Below, one piece after another: positions 16,681 to 24,364 of a DNA stretch of 64,000 nt; position 1 is the stretch's first letter, and the number at the start of each line of letters is the position of its first letter. The position numbers were made by a program, and so were the translations under genes. Source of the stretch: Arhodomonas aquaeolei DSM 8974 (GTDB lineage Bacteria; Pseudomonadota; Gammaproteobacteria; Nitrococcales; Nitrococcaceae); the NCBI RefSeq assembly GCF_000374645.1, contig NZ_KB894810.1, positions 1-64,000 of the forward strand, given 5' to 3'. Under the pieces are notes generated by a model that did no database searches, was not told the DNA's origin, and saw only the letters and a program-made list of their open reading frames with translations.

Positions 16681-18407
16681 CGGCTCACCCCCATGGCCGA
16701 GCTCGTCTGACGGCGCGGGTCGGCGGCCCCGTGGAAGCCGTCCGCATCGATGAGGATGGACTGGATCGCCCCCATCGAGCGCTCCTGCTTCACGCGGTGG
16801 CCCATGGCCTCCAGTCCGGCGATGGTGTCCGGGCTGATGCCCTGCTCGATGCGGATATAGTCGGGCCGCCACTGGTGGTGCACCCGCGGCGCGTTGACCG
16901 CGGTCTGGATGTTCATGTCGTGATCGATGACGTTCATGATCACCTGCAGCGTCGTGGTGATGATCCGCGAGCCGCCGGGGCTGCCGGTGACGAGGCGGTT
17001 CCGGCCGTCCTTCTTCACGATGGTCGGCGACATGGACGAGAGCATGCGCTTGCCAGGCTCGATCCGGTTGGCCTCGCCGCCGATGAGCCCGTAGGCGTTG
17101 GGCACGCCCGGCTTGGCGGAGAAGTCGTCCATCTCGTTGTTCATGAGAAAGCCCGCGCCGTCGACCACCAGCCCCGAGCCGTAGCTGAAGTTCAGGGTGT
17201 AGGTGTTCGCCACCACCAGGCCGTCGCCGTCGGCGATGGAGAAGTGCGTGGTCTCGTTGGACTCGTACGGCCAGGGATCGCCGGCGGCAACCGCGTCCGC
17301 CGGCGTCGCCCGTTCCGGGTCGATCTCCCCGCGCAGCGCCCCGGCGTAGGCCTTGCTGGTGAGCCCCGCCACCGGCACGTCGACGAAGTCGCTGTCGCCG
17401 AGGTAACGCGCCCGGTCGGCGTAGGCACGCTTCATTGCCTCGGCCATCAGGTGGATGGTGCGTGCCGAGTTGTGTCCGGCCGCGGCGATGTCGTAACCCT
17501 CGAGGATGTTGAGGATCTCCACGATGTGCGTGCCGCCGGAGGACGGCGGCCCCATGGAGTAGACGTCGTAGCCGCGGTAGCGGCCATGGACCGGTTCGCG
17601 CACCACCGGCCGGTAGCCGGCGAGGTCGTCCAGGGTCATGATCCCGCCGTGGCGCTGCAGGGTCGAGACGATGCGCTCGGCGGTCACGCCCTCGTAGAAC
17701 CCCTTCGGCCCCTGCTCGGCGATCCGCCGCAGGGTCCGCGCCAGCGCCGGCTGACGGAAGACCTGGCCGGCACGGTAGGGCGTGCCGTCGTCATGGAAGA
17801 ACTTGGCCCGGCTGGACGGCCAGCGCCCGAGCCGGTCCCGCGCCGAGGTCAGCCCCTCGGCGAAACGCGGCGGGACCTCGAAGCCCTCCTCCGCCAGGCG
17901 GATCGCCGGTGCCAGGGCCTCGGCCAGCGAACGCGTGCCGTAGCGGCGCAGGGCGAGCGCCAGGCCCGCGACGGTGCCGGGCACACCGGAGGCGTTCGCA
18001 CTGAAACGCGAGCGCTCCGGCACGACCTCGCCCTCGGCGTTCTGAAACATGGTCTCGGTGGCCGCCGCGGGGGCGGTCTCGCGGTAGTCGATGGCGACCA
18101 CCTCGCCGCTGCGCTCGTCGGAGACGAGCATGAACCCGCCGCCGCCGATGTTGCCCGAGCGCGGCTGGGTCACCGCCAGGGCGAAGCCCGCGGTCACCGC
18201 CGCGTCCACGGCGTTACCGCCGTCACGCAGCACGTCCCGCGCCACCCGGGAGGCGATGTAATGACTCGTCGCCACCATGCCGCCGTCCGCGGTCACCGGC
18301 CGGAAGCGCTCCCCCGCGAGGATAGCCTCCGCCGCGTGGCCCGCCGGCCCCCACACCAGCGCCACCGCTGCCAGCGCCAGCACCCGCCGTCGAATCCCCT
18401 CGATCAT
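16677..18407 (-). CDS. ggt: gamma-glutamyltranspeptidase precursor
   Basis: A 576-residue periplasmic Ntn-hydrolase. It has a signal peptide at 1-26 ending around GHAAEA, the glutathione-binding segment QPRSGNIGGGGFM near 80, and the autoprocessing site ETTHFSIAD near 387, where the Thr becomes the N-terminal nucleophile of the small subunit. The GSPGGSRIITT segment near 490 is also canonical. It cleaves the gamma-glutamyl bond of glutathione and its conjugates. ATG 18407 has GGGAGAG upstream and starts directly at the signal peptide. The gene overlaps the downstream GST by 4 bp. Confidence 0.95.
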   Translation of the reverse strand: MIEGIRRRVLALAAVALVWGPAGHAAEAILAGERFRPVTADGGMVATSHYIASRVARDVLRDGGNAVDAAVTAGFALAVTQPRSGNIGGGGFMLVSDERSGEVVAIDYRETAPAAATETMFQNAEGEVVPERSRFSANASGVPGTVAGLALALRRYGTRSLAEALAPAIRLAEEGFEVPPRFAEGLTSARDRLGRWPSSRAKFFHDDGTPYRAGQVFRQPALARTLRRIAEQGPKGFYEGVTAERIVSTLQRHGGIMTLDDLAGYRPVVREPVHGRYRGYDVYSMGPPSSGGTHIVEILNILEGYDIAAAGHNSARTIHLMAEAMKRAYADRARYLGDSDFVDVPVAGLTSKAYAGALRGEIDPERATPADAVAAGDPWPYESNETTHFSIADGDGLVVANTYTLNFSYGSGLVVDGAGFLMNNEMDDFSAKPGVPNAYGLIGGEANRIEPGKRMLSSMSPTIVKKDGRNRLVTGSPGGSRIITTTLQVIMNVIDHDMNIQTAVNAPRVHHQWRPDYIRIEQGISPDTIAGLEAMGHRVKQERSMGAIQSILIDADGFHGAADPRRQTSSAMGVSR

Positions 18408-18612
18408 GCCGCTCTCCCGCTGTCCGTATCTGCCCTGCCCGGCACCCGGCTCAACCGCCGGGCGCCGGCACACCATTAGTCCGGCCACCAGTATGGTCAC
18501 CGCCCCGGACACCTGCACCCCTGCCGGCGAGTTCCGGAACGCCGAAGCGGCCGGACACACGGCCTCGGGGACGGGGCGCGCCGGGGCACGTCAACGTAGT
18601 AGGCTGTGATCG

Positions 18613-19056
18613 ATGAGTATCGACCCGGACAATGACAAGGTACTGCGCATCTCGCGCAACGTGGCGACCGGGCTGGACGAGATCGAGCTCTCGGCGGTGC
18701 GCGCCCCCGGCCCCGGCGGGCAGAACGTGAACAAGGTCGCCACCGCCGTGCACCTGCGCTTCGACAGCCAGTCGTCGTCGCTGCCGGCCTTCTACAAGGA
18801 GCGCCTGCTGGCGTGCAGCGATCACCGCGTGACCGCGGACGGCGTGGTCGTGATCCGCGCCCGCCGCCACCGCAGCCAGGCCCTCAACCGCCAGGACGCC
18901 CTGGAGCGCCTGCGCGCCCTGCTGCGCGGGCTCACCGAGACGCCGGCGACACGGGTACCCACCCGCCCGAGCCGCAACGCACGCCGCCGGCGCACGGACC
19001 GCAAGGTCCGCCACGGGCGCAAGAAGGCGATGCGCCGTACACCGCCGACGGAGTGA
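18613..19056 (+). CDS. arfB: alternative ribosome-rescue factor, peptidyl-tRNA hydrolase
   Basis: A 147-residue RF1/RF2-type catalytic domain with the GGQ motif in RAPGPGGQNVNKV near residue 36. It ends in a strongly basic tail (many Arg and Lys after residue 115) that in ArfB enters the empty mRNA channel. It hydrolyses peptidyl-tRNA on ribosomes stalled on non-stop mRNA. Length matches ArfB/YaeJ (about 140). It is divergent from ggt and ends 15 bp before the convergent YedE-like gene. Confidence 0.95.
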   Translation: MSIDPDNDKVLRISRNVATGLDEIELSAVRAPGPGGQNVNKVATAVHLRFDSQSSSLPAFYKERLLACSDHRVTADGVVVIRARRHRSQALNRQDALERLRALLRGLTETPATRVPTRPSRNARRRRTDRKVRHGRKKAMRRTPPTE

Positions 19057-19071
19057 CGGCAGCGGACCGCT

Positions 19072-19482
19072 TCAGGGGCGGGCCGTGAACCGGTAGAGGA
19101 TCATGCCGCCGGCGAGCCCGACGACGAAGGTCAGGGGCACCACACTGCCCAGCGCCAGTGCCGCGATCCCCGGCCCGGGACAGAAGCCCGCCACACCCCA
19201 GCCGACCCCGAACACCACGGCACCGCCGATCAGCCGCGCGTCGATGTCCCTGCGGGTCGGCAGCTGGAAGGCCGGTGCGAACACCGGCCGGGGACGGCGC
19301 AGCACGAAGCGGAAGCTGATCAGCGTGGTGGCCACCGCCCCGGCAAGAACGAACACCAGGGTCGGGTCCCAGCGGCCGGTGAGATCAAGGAAACCGAGCA
19401 CCCGCGCCGGGTCCGTCATCTGCGCAAGGGCCAGGCCGGCGCCGAACAGCAGCCCGGCGACAATGCTCACGAGATGGATCAT
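19072..19482 (-). CDS. YeeE/YedE-family membrane protein, second half (DUF6691-like)
   Basis: A 136-residue protein with four hydrophobic segments and the motif GWGVAGFCPGPGIAAL, whose Cys lies in a membrane-entrance position typical of YeeE/YedE sulfur transporters. In TsuA-like proteins such halves move thiosulfate-type ions through Cys relays. Here the two halves are separate genes that overlap by ATGA (19479-19482). It is the last gene of a leftward operon with the metallo-beta-lactamase protein. The exact substrate is inferred. Confidence 0.88.
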   Translation of the reverse strand: MIHLVSIVAGLLFGAGLALAQMTDPARVLGFLDLTGRWDPTLVFVLAGAVATTLISFRFVLRRPRPVFAPAFQLPTRRDIDARLIGGAVVFGVGWGVAGFCPGPGIAALALGSVVPLTFVVGLAGGMILYRFTARP

Positions 19483-19916
19483 GACGCCACCCCCAGTACG
19501 TGCCGGACGACGAACACGGTGACGATGCTGGTCGCCATGAACGTGATCACGGCGATCAGCGAGCGCGGCGACAGCCGCCCGAGCCCGCAGACACCGTGGC
19601 CGCTGGTGCAGCCGCTGCCCAGGCGGGTACCGAAGCCGACGAGGACACCGGCGGCCAGCACCGCCCACAGCGGCAGCCCGCTGTGGAGCACCGCCCCCGC
19701 CGGCCAGAGCACGTAGACGGCCCCCGCACCGGCGATCATGCCGGCGAGGAAGAGCAGCCGCCACAGCCGCTCGCCACCGTGCTCCTCCATGGCCCCGGCC
19801 GCGATGCCGCTGATGCCCGCGATCCGCCCGTTCAGCCACAACAGGATGGTGGCGGCGAGCCCGATGAGGATCCCCCCTGCCAGGGCGGGAACCGGCTCGA
19901 AGGGCACGATCGTCAT
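19479..19916 (-). CDS. YeeE/YedE-family membrane protein, first half
   Basis: A 145-residue protein with about four membrane segments and the conserved cysteine motif GSGCTSGHGVCGLGRLSPRS near residues 100-120, the family hallmark. It overlaps both neighbours by 4 bp (ATGA at 19913-19916 and 19479-19482), so the three genes are very likely translated as a unit. In characterised bigR/blh-type operons, similar YedE halves accompany a persulfide dioxygenase-like enzyme. Transport of a reduced sulfur species is inferred. Confidence 0.9.
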   Translation of the reverse strand: MTIVPFEPVPALAGGILIGLAATILLWLNGRIAGISGIAAGAMEEHGGERLWRLLFLAGMIAGAGAVYVLWPAGAVLHSGLPLWAVLAAGVLVGFGTRLGSGCTSGHGVCGLGRLSPRSLIAVITFMATSIVTVFVVRHVLGVAS

Positions 19917-20815
19917 GCGGATTCCCCCGAATAGCTCTGGCTGAAATCCCCGGGCCGGTCAATGGGGATCTTCACGTAGGCGACCCCGTTGTCCTCCGCC
20001 GGCGGCAGCCGCCCGGCACGGATGTTCACCTGCACCGCGGGGATGATCAGCCGCGGCAGGTCCAGGGTCCGGTCACGCCCCTCTCGGCGTTCGACGAATT
20101 CCGCCTCGGTGACGCCGTCGCGCACGTGGATGTTGCCGCCACGCTGCTCGCCGATCGTGGTCTCGTTGCGATACTCGCGGCCGTTGGGACGGTAGTCGTG
20201 GAGCACGAACAGCCGGGTCTCGTCCGGCAGCTCGTAGAGCCGCATGATCGAGTGATAGAGCACCGATGCGCTGCCGCCGGGGAAGTCGCAGCGCGCGGTT
20301 CCCCCGTCCGGCATGAACAGGGTGTCCCCGCAGAAGGCCGCGTCACCGATCACGTACGTGAGGCTGTCCGAGGTGTGCCCCGGCGTGGGAATGGCCCGGG
20401 CCTCGATGTTGCCGACGTGGAAGGTCTCGTAGTCCGCGAACAGGTGATCGAACTGCGAGCCGTCCGGCAGGAAGCCCCGCTCCAGGTTGTAGACGTCGCG
20501 GAAGTGGCGCTGCACCGTGCGGATCCCCTCGCCGATGCCGGTGGTGCCACCGAGGCGGTCACGGATGTGCGCACCGGCGGCCAGGTGGTCCGCATGGGCG
20601 TGGGTCTCCAGCACCCATTCCACCTCCAGGCCCTCGCGGCGCACGAACTCGATGATCCCGTCGGCGCTGTCGGTGCCCGTGCGCCCCGCGTTCTCGGCGT
20701 AGTCGAGCACCGAGTCGATCACCGCGGCACGCCGGGTCTGCGGGTCCCAGACCACGTAGGAGAACGTGGACGTGGGTTCGTGCAGGAACTGCCTGACTTC
20801 GGGACGTGCACTCAT
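19913..20815 (-). CDS. metallo-beta-lactamase-fold hydrolase, Blh/persulfide dioxygenase-like
   Basis: A 300-residue MBL-fold protein with the metal motif ETHAHADHL (near 60) and PTPGHTSDSLTY. It also has FCGDTLFMPDGGTARCDFPGG and the HDYRPNGREYRNETTIGEQR segment found in Blh/ETHE1-like proteins. These oxidise or handle glutathione persulfide during sulfide detoxification. ATG 20815 has GGAGGTG upstream; longer in-frame starts run into the promoter region. It heads an operon with two YedE halves and is divergent from a SulP transporter. Glyoxalase II function is the alternative but the C-terminal signature argues against it. Confidence 0.88.
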   Translation of the reverse strand: MSARPEVRQFLHEPTSTFSYVVWDPQTRRAAVIDSVLDYAENAGRTGTDSADGIIEFVRREGLEVEWVLETHAHADHLAAGAHIRDRLGGTTGIGEGIRTVQRHFRDVYNLERGFLPDGSQFDHLFADYETFHVGNIEARAIPTPGHTSDSLTYVIGDAAFCGDTLFMPDGGTARCDFPGGSASVLYHSIMRLYELPDETRLFVLHDYRPNGREYRNETTIGEQRGGNIHVRDGVTEAEFVERREGRDRTLDLPRLIIPAVQVNIRAGRLPPAEDNGVAYVKIPIDRPGDFSQSYSGESA

Positions 20816-20849
20816 CGCGGCACCTCCTTCGACTGATATCCCGAATAAT

Positions 20850-20880
20850 GTAATAAGCATATTACTGAAACATATATTAC
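20850..20880. promoter_or_regulatory. AT-rich operator between Blh-like and SulP genes (BigR/SqrR-like)
   Basis: The perfect inverted repeat GTAATA-AGCA-TATTAC spans 20850-20865. A further TATTAC half-site at 20875-20880 is 15 bp from the second arm. The stretch is a sharply AT-rich island in GC-rich DNA and sits in the 112-bp gap between divergent genes. Persulfide-sensing ArsR-family repressors (BigR, SqrR) bind AT-rich palindromes over the promoters of this type of operon. No ArsR regulator is encoded within the window. Confidence 0.6.
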
Positions 20881-20927
20881 ACTGCGAATGGTACCGCTCG
20901 ATCATCACCATAGACGCAACGGCGCCG

Positions 20928-22703
20928 ATGAAGCTGCAACCGCCCCTGTTGACCAGCCTCCGCGGCTATGACCGCCAGGCCTTCTCCGACGACCTGACGG
21001 CGGGGATCATCACCGCCATTCTGCTCGTCCCCCAGGGCATGGCGTACGCGCTGCTCGCGGGACTGCCGGCGGAGACCGGGCTGTACGCCAGTATCATACC
21101 GCCGGCGGTCTATGCGGTGTTCGGCACCAGCCGCACCCTTGCCGTGGGCCCGGTGGCCGTCGCCGCACTCATGGTCGCCGACGCCCTGTCCCGCTTCGCC
21201 GGCGCCGATCCCCAGCAGTGGATCACCGGCGCCTCCATCCTGGCCGCGGAGGTGGGCGTGATACTGGCCGTCGGTGGGGCCCTGCGCCTGGGCCGGCTGG
21301 TCAACCTGATCGGCCACCCGGTGCTGTCCGGTTTCACCAGCGCGGCGGCGGCGCTGATCATGCTGAGCCAGGTGGGCCACCTGCTGGGCGTCGATGCCCC
21401 CCGGGGGGACGCGGTCACCATGATCACCGGCCTGTACACCCACATCGGCGCCGTCTCCACCGCCACCACGGTGACCTCCGTGCTCGCCATCGCCGCGCTG
21501 GTGCTCGCGCGCCGGCCGCTGCAACGGCTGCTCACCGGGCTCGGCGCCAGCCCGAACGCCGCCGCCCTCGCCTCCCGGACGGCCCCGCTGGCGGTGGTGA
21601 TCGCGGCCTCCCTGGCGATGGCCGCGCTCGCCGGCAACGGCGGTGCGCCGGTGCGCGTGGTAGGCGACATCCCCGCCGGCCTGCCGGCCCCGGGTCTCGA
21701 TTTCCTCGCCAGCGCCGGCTGGGCCGAGCTCGCCCCGTCCGCGGTGCTCATCGCGCTGATCGGCTACGTGGAGAGCGTCACCGTCGCCAAGGTCCTGGGC
21801 GGGCGCCGGCGCGAGCGCGTCGACGCCAATCAGGAGCTCCTCGCCCTGGGGGCGGCCAACTTCGGCTCCGCGCTGGTGGGCACCATGCCCGCCGCCGGCG
21901 GCTTCTCGCGCTCGGTGGTGAACTTCGACGCCGGGGCCCGAACCCAGGTCGCCGCGCTGATCACCGCCGGCCTCGTCGGGGTGGTCGCCGCCTTCTTCAC
22001 CGGCTGGTTCGCGTTCCTGCCGAAAGCGGTGCTCGCCGCGATCATCGTGGTCGCCATCTGGCAGCTCATCGACTTCCGCGGCGCGATAGAGACCACCCGG
22101 TACGACCGGGGCGACGGCGCGACCCTCATCGCCACGGTGGCCGGCGTGCTGGGCTTCGGCCTGGAGCCCGGGCTGGTGGCCGGCATCGCGCTGTCGCTGT
22201 TCCTCTACGTCTGGCGCAGCAGCCGGCCGCACATGGCCGTGATCGGGCGCATCCCGGGCACCGAGCATTTCCGCAACGTCGAGCGCCACGAGGTGGTCTG
22301 CGACCCCCGGCGGGTGCTCCTGCGCATCGACGAGAACATCTACTTCGCCAACGCCGAGCCGGTCCGCGACTTCGTGCTCGCGGCCCTCGACCGCCATCCC
22401 GATGCCGAAGCCGCGGTGCTGGTGATGAGCTCGGTGAGCTACATCGACAGCAGCGGGCTGGAGATGCTGGAGGCGCTGCACGCCGATCTGCAGGCGCAGT
22501 CAGTCGCCCTGCACCTCGCAGAGGTGAAGGGGCCGGTGGCGGACCGGCTCGCGCAGACACACCTCTGGCACGGGCTGCCGGAGAGCCATCACCACCTCAG
22601 CGTCGCCGCGGCGGTGGACGCCCTGGGGGGCGACGGCGGGAACGAGACGACCGCGGCCGCAACACGACGCCGCATCCACGGCCCGGACCGCCCTGCGGGA
22701 TGA
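20928..22703 (+). CDS. SulP-family anion transporter with STAS domain
   Basis: A 591-residue permease. The SLC26/SulP core has 10-14 hydrophobic segments with signatures LVPQGMAYALLAGLP and PAAGGFSRSVVNFDAGART. A cytosolic STAS domain follows after about 460, with VMSSVSYIDSSGLEMLEAL. Family members carry sulfate, bicarbonate or related anions. Its start is taken as ATG 20928; the Shine-Dalgarno is poor. Divergence from the Blh/YedE operon around a shared operator suggests movement of an oxidised sulfur product such as sulfite or sulfate, but direction and substrate are inferred. Confidence 0.9.
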   Translation: MKLQPPLLTSLRGYDRQAFSDDLTAGIITAILLVPQGMAYALLAGLPAETGLYASIIPPAVYAVFGTSRTLAVGPVAVAALMVADALSRFAGADPQQWITGASILAAEVGVILAVGGALRLGRLVNLIGHPVLSGFTSAAAALIMLSQVGHLLGVDAPRGDAVTMITGLYTHIGAVSTATTVTSVLAIAALVLARRPLQRLLTGLGASPNAAALASRTAPLAVVIAASLAMAALAGNGGAPVRVVGDIPAGLPAPGLDFLASAGWAELAPSAVLIALIGYVESVTVAKVLGGRRRERVDANQELLALGAANFGSALVGTMPAAGGFSRSVVNFDAGARTQVAALITAGLVGVVAAFFTGWFAFLPKAVLAAIIVVAIWQLIDFRGAIETTRYDRGDGATLIATVAGVLGFGLEPGLVAGIALSLFLYVWRSSRPHMAVIGRIPGTEHFRNVERHEVVCDPRRVLLRIDENIYFANAEPVRDFVLAALDRHPDAEAAVLVMSSVSYIDSSGLEMLEALHADLQAQSVALHLAEVKGPVADRLAQTHLWHGLPESHHHLSVAAAVDALGGDGGNETTAAATRRRIHGPDRPAG

Positions 22704-22719
22704 CCCGGGCCTGCGGCTC

Positions 22720-23457
22720 CTAGCGGATGCCCCGCACGAAATAGGCGTTGGGGTCGTCGGTAATCACGGCCGTGAGCCCCGCCGACCACAGCGGGTCCAC
22801 CGCCTCGGGACGGTTGGCGGTCCATGCCACCACCGCGATTCCCGCCGCGCACAGCCGCCGCACCCCGGCGGGGTCCAGATGACGCCAGTCCACGTGCAGG
22901 CTCACACCGCCGAACGCCTGCAGCACAGCGCCGGCACGCTCGGGCACGCGCTCGCAGATCAGGCCCAGGCGGATCCCGGGATCCCGTCGCCGGCATTCGG
23001 CGAGCACCGGCACGTCGAAGGACGAGAGCAGCAACGCCTCCCGTGGGAACCCGGTCGTCTGCAGGCTATCGAGGACCGTGGCCGCCAGGGCCGTCCGCCT
23101 GCCCTCCTCCCCCGTCGGCTTGAGCTCAAGGTTGAGCCCCAGCCCGCGCTGGCGACACAGGGCGAGGGCCTGCTCGAGACGCGGCATCCGGGTGCCGGCG
23201 TAGCGGGGTGAGAACCACCCGCCGGCATCGAGGGCGGCAACCGCTGCCCAGTCCGCATCGGCGATCCGTCCGGCCCCGTCGGTGCAGCGATCCAGACGCT
23301 CGTCGTGGAAGATGACCGGCGTGCCGTCGCCGAGCAGCTGGACATCCAGCTCCACCCAGCCCACACCCAGGGCCGCCGCCAGCTCGATCGCCGGGAGTGT
23401 ATTCTCCGGCGCGGCCAGCGATGCCCCGCGATGGGCGAAAACCCGTGTCCCGAACAT
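22720..23457 (-). CDS. ugpQ: glycerophosphodiester phosphodiesterase
   Basis: A 245-residue GDPD-family TIM barrel. It begins VFAHRGASLAAPENTLPA (His 9-Arg 10 and the Glu of PENT), followed by ELDVQLLGDGTPVIFHDERLDRCTDG in two parts and ELKPTGEE, all active-site segments. It hydrolyses deacylated phospholipids to glycerol-3-phosphate and an alcohol. No signal peptide is seen, so it is cytosolic like UgpQ. ATG 23457 has GGGAG upstream. It ends 16 bp from the convergent sulP gene and is followed upstream by the liv operon without an obvious functional link. Confidence 0.93.
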   Translation of the reverse strand: MFGTRVFAHRGASLAAPENTLPAIELAAALGVGWVELDVQLLGDGTPVIFHDERLDRCTDGAGRIADADWAAVAALDAGGWFSPRYAGTRMPRLEQALALCRQRGLGLNLELKPTGEEGRRTALAATVLDSLQTTGFPREALLLSSFDVPVLAECRRRDPGIRLGLICERVPERAGAVLQAFGGVSLHVDWRHLDPAGVRRLCAAGIAVVAWTANRPEAVDPLWSAGLTAVITDDPNAYFVRGIR

Positions 23458-23570
23458 GCATGACTCCCTCGGCCCGGACCGCGGCACGGCGACAACGACC
23501 CATCCCGCCACGTGGCAGGACGGCATACGGCCAAGGCTGACGCGGGAATATTACACGGGTGTTGCAGGCG

Positions 23571-23604
23571 GGCCCGGCCCGGGGCAACGCCCCGGGGCCC
23601 GGCC
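23571..23604 (-). terminator. GC-rich hairpin after livF
   Basis: CCCGGGGC (23578-23585) and GCCCCGGG (23589-23596) form a stem with loop AAC, extended by flanking GGCCCGG and GCCCGGCC with a slight offset. It lies just 3' of livF on the minus strand. No U-tract follows. Confidence 0.5.
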
Positions 23605-23608
23605 ATGC

Positions 23609-24364
23609 CTAGATCGCCAGGTACTGGTCGCGGAGCTCCTGGTTGTCGAGCACGTGGTTGGCCTCACCCTCGTAGGCGACCTCGCCCATGTCCAGGATCA
23701 CCGCCCGGTCCGCGAGCTCCAGCGCGGCGATCGCGTTCTGCTCGACGATGATGGTGGTGATACCCAGGGACTTCACCTCCCTGAGGATGGACTCGATCTC
23801 CTGAACGATCTGAGGTGCCAGCCCCTCGTAGGGCTCGTCGAGGAGCAGCAGCTTGACATCCCGCGCCAGTGCCCGGGCCACGGCCAGCATCTGCTGCTCG
23901 CCGCCGGACATGGTGATCGCCTCCTGCTTGCGGCGCTCGGCGAGCCGCGGGAAGTGCTCGTAGATCTGCTCGATCGACCACCCCCGGGGCTCGGCGATCT
24001 GCGCCACCACCAGGTTCTCCTCGACCGTGATGCCGGGGATGATCCGCCGGTCCTCGGGCACCAGCTGCACCCCCGACTGCGCCGCCCGGTGGGTGGGCAT
24101 GCGATGCAGTGGCTGACCGGCGAGCCAGATCTCGCCGCTGCGCAGCTGCGGATCGTGGGCCCGGGCGATGGTACGCAGGGTCGAGGTCTTGCCGGCACCG
24201 TTGCGCCCGAGCAGGGCGACGATCTCACCCTCCCGGACCTCGAAGCTCACACCCTGGACGATGTAGCTCTCGCCGTAGTAGGCGTGAATGTCCCGGCACG
24301 CGAAGTACGCCTCCTGTCCGCCCGCATCGGTCTGTGCCGGCTGCGCATGAGTACTGGCGCTCAT
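23609..24364 (-). CDS. livF: branched-chain amino acid type ABC transporter ATPase
   Basis: A 251-residue ABC ATPase with Walker A GRNGAGKTS (near 53), Q-loop VPEDRRIIPG, signature MSGGEQQM and Walker B LLLLDEPYEGLAP. VPEDRRIIPGITVEENL is typical of LivF. The first ~18 residues form an unusual polar extension. Its start overlaps the livG stop (ATGA at 24361-24364). It energises the LivHM channel with LivG. Confidence 0.93.
   Translation of the reverse strand: MSASTHAQPAQTDAGGQEAYFACRDIHAYYGESYIVQGVSFEVREGEIVALLGRNGAGKTSTLRTIARAHDPQLRSGEIWLAGQPLHRMPTHRAAQSGVQLVPEDRRIIPGITVEENLVVAQIAEPRGWSIEQIYEHFPRLAERRKQEAITMSGGEQQMLAVARALARDVKLLLLDEPYEGLAPQIVQEIESILREVKSLGITTIIVEQNAIAALELADRAVILDMGEVAYEGEANHVLDNQELRDQYLAI

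Follow-up and report, generated by a model that had tools for sequence, protein, structure and literature searches.

A predicted persulfide-clearing module, whose two divergent transcription units probably share an operator, lies in a 64,000-nucleotide stretch of Arhodomonas aquaeolei DSM 8974 (positions 1 to 64,000 of contig NZ_KB894810.1; hereafter the window). The genes encoding a dioxygenase and two split YeeE/YedE halves face away from the gene of a SulP/STAS anion transporter (Table 1), and each of the first two genes overlaps the following one by 4 bases (dioxygenase/YedE half at 19913–19916; YedE half/YedE half at 19479–19482): this layout had been described in an earlier interpretation made from the letters alone (the sequence-only reading), and the reading frames agree with it. 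The gap between the dioxygenase and SulP genes spans 112 bp (20816–20927) and is the low-GC stretch of the 18–24 kb region, with a value of 0.55 compared to about 0.65–0.81 around it (200-base windows). Within this AT-rich gap we could locate the palindrome GTAATA-N4-TATTAC and the third half-site that the same reading had pointed out. The SulP gene starts with the ATG at 20928, with an alternative GTG at 20766 disfavoured because it falls within the dioxygenase gene. A scan of 18000–24000 against Rfam gave no match at the gathering threshold, and no -24/-12 element was seen in the gap by eye, a gene for FisR (sigma-54) not having been searched for.

Table 1. Features of the divergent dioxygenase-YedE/SulP locus (window coordinates).
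Feature	Position	Strand	Basis
Predicted stand-alone persulfide dioxygenase (SdoA/PDO type), 300 aa	19913..20815	-	PF00753; PDB 9g8t and 4ysk
Predicted split YeeE/YedE half (PmpA/PmpB type), 145 aa, motif GCTSGHGVCG	19479..19916	-	PF04143
Second predicted split YeeE/YedE half (DUF6691), 136 aa, motif GFCPGPG	19072..19482	-	PF20398
SulP/STAS anion transporter, 591 aa	20928..22703	+	PF00916, PF01740, TIGR00815
Dyad GTAATAAGCATATTAC, probable shared operator	20850..20865	.	palindrome; core dyad kept in four same-family genomes
Third half-site TATTAC, SulP side	20875..20880	.	matching stretch of relatives is GAATAT or AAATAT

The dioxygenase contains a metallo-beta-lactamase domain (PF00753) only, and almost all of its length aligns with PDB entries 9g8t (349 bits) and 4ysk (338 bits), the latter of which we take to be a sulfur dioxygenase. 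By eye, the motifs THAHADH, TPGHT and GDTLF are present and conserved with 4ysk, their residues presumably being ligands in a 2-His-1-Asp iron site. On the basis of this fold and its close sulfur dioxygenase relatives, the enzyme is assigned by sequence to the SdoA/ETHE1 group of persulfide dioxygenases. The sequence-only reading had called the protein Blh-like, of which the dioxygenase part holds and the Blh label does not: the Blh model NF040641 is matched with 382.8 bits against a cut-off of 625, over model positions 139–421 of 423, and a Pfam profile search revealed no DUF442 domain, so that the two-domain Blh identity is excluded by the low score and the missing N-terminal domain. A second SdoA-type dioxygenase, 61% identical, is encoded elsewhere in the genome (contig C14, 92000–106000; 5499–9450 of that stretch), where it is followed by a 579-aa protein combining a BLH_phosphatase (DUF442) domain with an SQR-like Pyr_redox_2 domain and is preceded by a membrane protein that by eye resembles a TDT/TehA-type exporter (no Pfam match). 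In case of the YedE halves, the 145-aa protein scores 25.7 bits against PF04143, just below the cut-off of 27, with a weak TsuA match, and the 136-aa protein scores 146.8 bits against PF20398; a PDB sequence search at E up to 1 gave no match for either. Their adjacency, their sizes and the presence of one key Cys motif in each identify them, as judged from sequence, as a PmpA/PmpB-type pair, for which a heterodimer is proposed (PMC11582611). The transporter is a member of the SulP/SLC26 family, with its Sulfate_transp (PF00916) and STAS (PF01740) domains and TIGR00815 (410.7 bits) all above their cut-offs, and matches SLC26/SULTR structures by sequence.

The window holds a single match to the dyad at up to 2 mismatches (chance mean 0.04), and the 3.96-Mb genome one exact copy and three other places with 2 mismatches each, compared to 19 places for the reversed control pattern. 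The further sites for which the sequence-only reading had called are hence lacking in the genome at fewer than 2 mismatches. What lifts the dyad above chance is its conservation in a related genus, not its composition. As a comparison set we used four genomes of one genus of the same family (g3: G002, G007, G009 and G013), whose SulP proteins are 57–58% identical to that of the window and in which the gap stands before a dioxygenase-SulP operon, with SQR divergent where the contig shows it. These gaps hold, in the order listed, AGAATAAATATATTCC, GGAATATAGTTATTCC, GGAATAAGCATATTCC and GGAATAAGCTTATTGC, each with an A-rich spacer behind it and then a third half-site resembling GAATAT or AAATAT. 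The core AATA-N4-TATT is present in all four g3 gaps as well as in the window, but in just 3 of the 105 further dioxygenase upstream regions used as controls, and in G007 and G009 the outer pair has changed symmetrically from GT..AC to GG..CC. Local alignment with the window gap gave scores of 17, 13, 13 and 14 in g3; those of G002, G007, G009 and G013 were reached by 6, 12, 0 and 2 of 2000 shuffles, and when the 39-base core was compared without gaps the corresponding counts were 22, 4, 1 and 6 of 2000. The view that the dyad is a conserved operator, shared with g3, is moderately supported by these comparisons, and the single shared operator of the sequence-only reading is probably correct on the strength of this conservation, with the palindrome by itself not sufficing.

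Several observations weigh against this assignment. Dinucleotide shuffling of the gap yields an equally long perfect inverted repeat (spacer up to 8) in 209 of 1000 cases, and shuffling of its AT-rich core alone in 157 of 1000; the palindrome was for the former reason rejected as sole evidence of an operator. Two of the four gaps (G002 and G013) have a broken outer pair, and, with all of g3 counting as a single lineage, only two lineages are compared. When the 105 control regions were aligned with the window gap on both strands, 5 reached a score of 13, 3 reached 15 and 1 reached 16, with the best of these (L092, L063 and L072) being BigR-linked Achromobacter regions that align mainly on the side of the third half-site. 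Neither the upstream region of G003, which has the nearest dioxygenase (74%), nor that of the C14 paralogue showed a significant alignment (715 and 178 of 2000 shuffles, respectively, did as well), and both were rejected as footprint partners. Furthermore, the pattern GKAATA-N4-TATTMC is not enriched over its reversed control in the order (7 versus 8 sites in 54 genomes): three of the 7 sites are in the gaps that define the pattern, three are within reading frames and one, in G008, is intergenic. Finally, no regulator of the dyad was found in the genome. The looser pattern GNAATA-N4-TATTNC gave 13 sites across 11 genomes, of which eight outside the gaps were inspected and found mostly within reading frames. 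The G008 site (L261, G008:C1:186540) reads GGAATATCCATATTCC and stands, by eye, between a gene resembling that of a substrate-binding protein and a trpG-like gene.

The shuffle counts would also suit a gap that contains no operator, the AT-rich block being a bidirectional promoter in which -10-like elements mimic a palindrome and the likeness to g3 reflects shared promoter sequence. Hexamers resembling -10 elements can indeed be seen by eye on both strands of the dyad; however, no sigma-70-like promoter was found in the gap at 9 of 12 matches, and the restriction of the core to g3 and 3 of the 105 controls, with a symmetric change in two of the four gaps, speaks for more than promoter sequence. 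We regard this explanation as unlikely.

A serious rival to the operator is a decayed BigR site: BigR, once located between the dioxygenase and SulP genes, would have disappeared, leaving the AT-rich gap as the remnant of its operator and expression constitutive or controlled in another manner. Locus L023 retains SulP together with BigR divergent from the dioxygenase. We surveyed dioxygenase loci from named genomes (the best 80 of 589 matches): the YedE pair is present in 42 of these 80, SulP in 19, and a BigR-like gene accompanies 39 of the 42 YedE pairs. From the 140 bp upstream of the dioxygenase in 52 loci whose opposite strand carries a BigR-like gene (one near-identical region removed) we derived a BigR palindrome model, TATTATAT-N6-ATATAATA, for which a few of the 51 input regions are not genuinely divergent gaps and six have negative scores. 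The best match to this model in the window overlaps the dyad (20858–20879) and its 9.6 bits are reached by 4 of 300 shuffles, which, together with the alignment scores of 15–16 for the three Achromobacter gaps, agrees with a relic. In spite of this, 9.6 bits is far below the median of 19.8 for the 51 gaps, and the perfect dyad is out of the BigR register and is common to g3, a genus without any match to the BigR profile NF040642 at E up to 1e-12. Strong BigR-type sites can occur where no BigR is seen nearby, a further point in favour of a relic: L135 and L098 carry sites of 19.3 and 22.3 bits (0 of 300 shuffles) before dioxygenase genes and show no BigR-like gene in the stretch examined, which for L135 is the whole 4.8-kb contig. 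Overall, we consider decay of a BigR site to be somewhat improbable. The region upstream of the C14 paralogue contains a BigR-type match of 10.1 bits (3 of 300 shuffles).

The sequence-only reading had instead assigned control to an ArsR-type persulfide sensor of the BigR/SqrR kind acting in trans, and had named the absence of any such sensor from the genome as one of the findings that would refute it. Precedent for this exists in Acinetobacter, where BigR controls the same genes (PMC7315123), and by eye the gaps of G007 and G009 contain ATTC-N7-GAAT, which is near to the SqrR site ATTC-N8-GAAT (PMC9774250). We searched the genome (48 contigs, reported 100% complete) with the profiles PF01022, PF12840 and NF040642, and read the frames of the PF01022 matches and of all PF12840 matches apart from two on small contigs (C35 and C36): no BigR/SqrR was found by these searches, the outcome that the sequence-only reading had itself set as refuting. 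The single strong ArsR (60 bits to PF01022) carries a CVC arsenic-type motif and precedes frames that by eye encode ArsC, ArsH and ACR3, and it is this arsenic-operon protein that gives the best NF040642 score of the genome, 46.3 bits as against about 86–120 for the module-adjacent BigR of relatives (the profile's own cut-off of 155 is reached in none of 115 genomes). A BigR in trans is not supported by these searches and was rejected, and we hold control by any ArsR-type sensor of this kind to be highly improbable. CstR fares no better as a candidate, being rejected for this genome (g3 was not searched for CstR) by the key residues of its one CsoR-family protein, which by eye are C-H-H; boxes of the CstR type (ATACCC-N4-GGGTAT) occur at three places in the genome with 1 mismatch and are absent from the window gap. 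In three g3 loci (L227 of G002, L228 of G009 and L230 of G007) a two-component pair that is RegB/RegA-like by eye stands beside SQR, consisting of a HisKA/HATPase protein and a protein with a receiver and a Fis-type helix-turn-helix domain. The RegA motif is GC-rich, and for this reason we do not propose this pair as the regulator.

Our preferred, if tentative, interpretation is that of a persulfide-clearing module of known kind under altered control, with a shared dyad operator and a dimeric factor acting in trans. The two YedE halves would act jointly in importing a sulfur species, persulfide would be oxidised to sulfite by the dioxygenase, and SulP may move the resulting or an exchanged anion, for which sulfite, sulfate and thiosulfate are candidates. 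Both transcription units would start in the gap, probably sharing the dyad and the extra half-site, and the factor, encoded elsewhere and being neither BigR/SqrR nor CstR, would probably repress both promoters until sulfane sulfur rises. A bolder version holds that the family possesses a third class of sulfane-sulfur regulator for dioxygenase, YedE and SulP genes, which would recognise a GKAATA-N4-TATTMC-like dyad plus half-site and would have replaced BigR and CstR, the module having been rewired at least three times; this we consider doubtful, and rate it lower in view of the nearly equal alignment of BigR-linked gaps. Around the same sulfur-detoxification genes stand sites of the BigR type, boxes of the CstR type or, in g3 and here, a third dyad: if true, this would offer a clean test case of how regulators are exchanged while the module stays fixed, and a way towards a new sulfane-sulfur sensor. 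No such operator appears in the titles and abstract openings that searches of an open-access library listed for combinations of SulP, persulfide dioxygenase, YedE, BigR or CstR.

The gene module is already known, and it is its control that is the variant. The BigR-controlled yeeE-yedE-pdo2 operon of Acinetobacter baumannii, found earlier in Serratia (PMC7315123) with the halves there named PmpA/PmpB (PMC11582611), likewise has a persulfide dioxygenase alongside a pair of YeeE/YedE halves; here, however, BigR is not detected in the genome, SulP is divergent from the dioxygenase and the control site is different. The bigR operon of Xylella and Agrobacterium also joins a persulfide dioxygenase to an anion transporter gene, although its enzyme is a DUF442-ETHE1 fusion (Blh) and its transporter a TauE-type exporter (PMC5823870), whereas Arhodomonas aquaeolei has a single-domain enzyme with SulP and carries its DUF442 domain on the SQR-like protein of the other locus. 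The partnership of SulP and persulfide dioxygenase is itself in print for Methylophaga thiooxydans, in whose pdo-sqrB-sulP cluster SQR is present and no YedE pair is described in the available text (PMC6548844). A further group of clusters (L137, L143, L184, L188, L234 and L235) contains the same YedE, dioxygenase or SulP families with a CstR-like gene, so named from its family and two cysteines seen by eye; several of these have an ATACCC-N4-GGGTAT-type box, unlike the window gap, and a CstR-like gene was not detected in the present genome.

Across 115 relatives, the second YedE half occurs in 28 copies in 27 genomes, accompanied by BigR in 11 cases, by a CstR-like gene in 4 and by neither in 13, including the Arhodomonas aquaeolei locus, with several of these 13 adjoining contig ends. 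SulP orthologues (E up to 1e-100) were found at 31 places besides the window, and the surroundings of all 31 were examined: in 16 of them a gene for a dioxygenase, SQR, YedE or a rhodanese lies no more than 5 kb away, 5 have only a CstR- or BigR-like gene at this distance, and 10 have neither. With either kind of neighbour counted, SulP is a recurrent partner in 21 of the 31 cases, a count made without a comparison set of other SulP genes, and the pairing of persulfide oxidation with an anion transporter suggested by the sequence-only reading is borne out to this extent. By strengthening, on comparative grounds, the case that SulP regularly accompanies persulfide oxidation, these counts make the identity of the transported anion a testable question. 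CstR-type boxes are present upstream of SulP in L143, L233, L234, L235 and L263 (L233 being among the ten with neither kind of neighbour) and upstream of a dioxygenase-SulP operon in L188 and L231. Locus L188 (G078:C3) combines a CstR-like gene, the YedE pair, SQR, dioxygenase and rhodanese with the SulP closest to that of the window (59%), and displays an in-frame TGA within the match of its second YedE half. In four Microbulbifer loci (L026, L035, L036 and L041), SulP genes flank the BigR/YedE/dioxygenase cluster on both sides.

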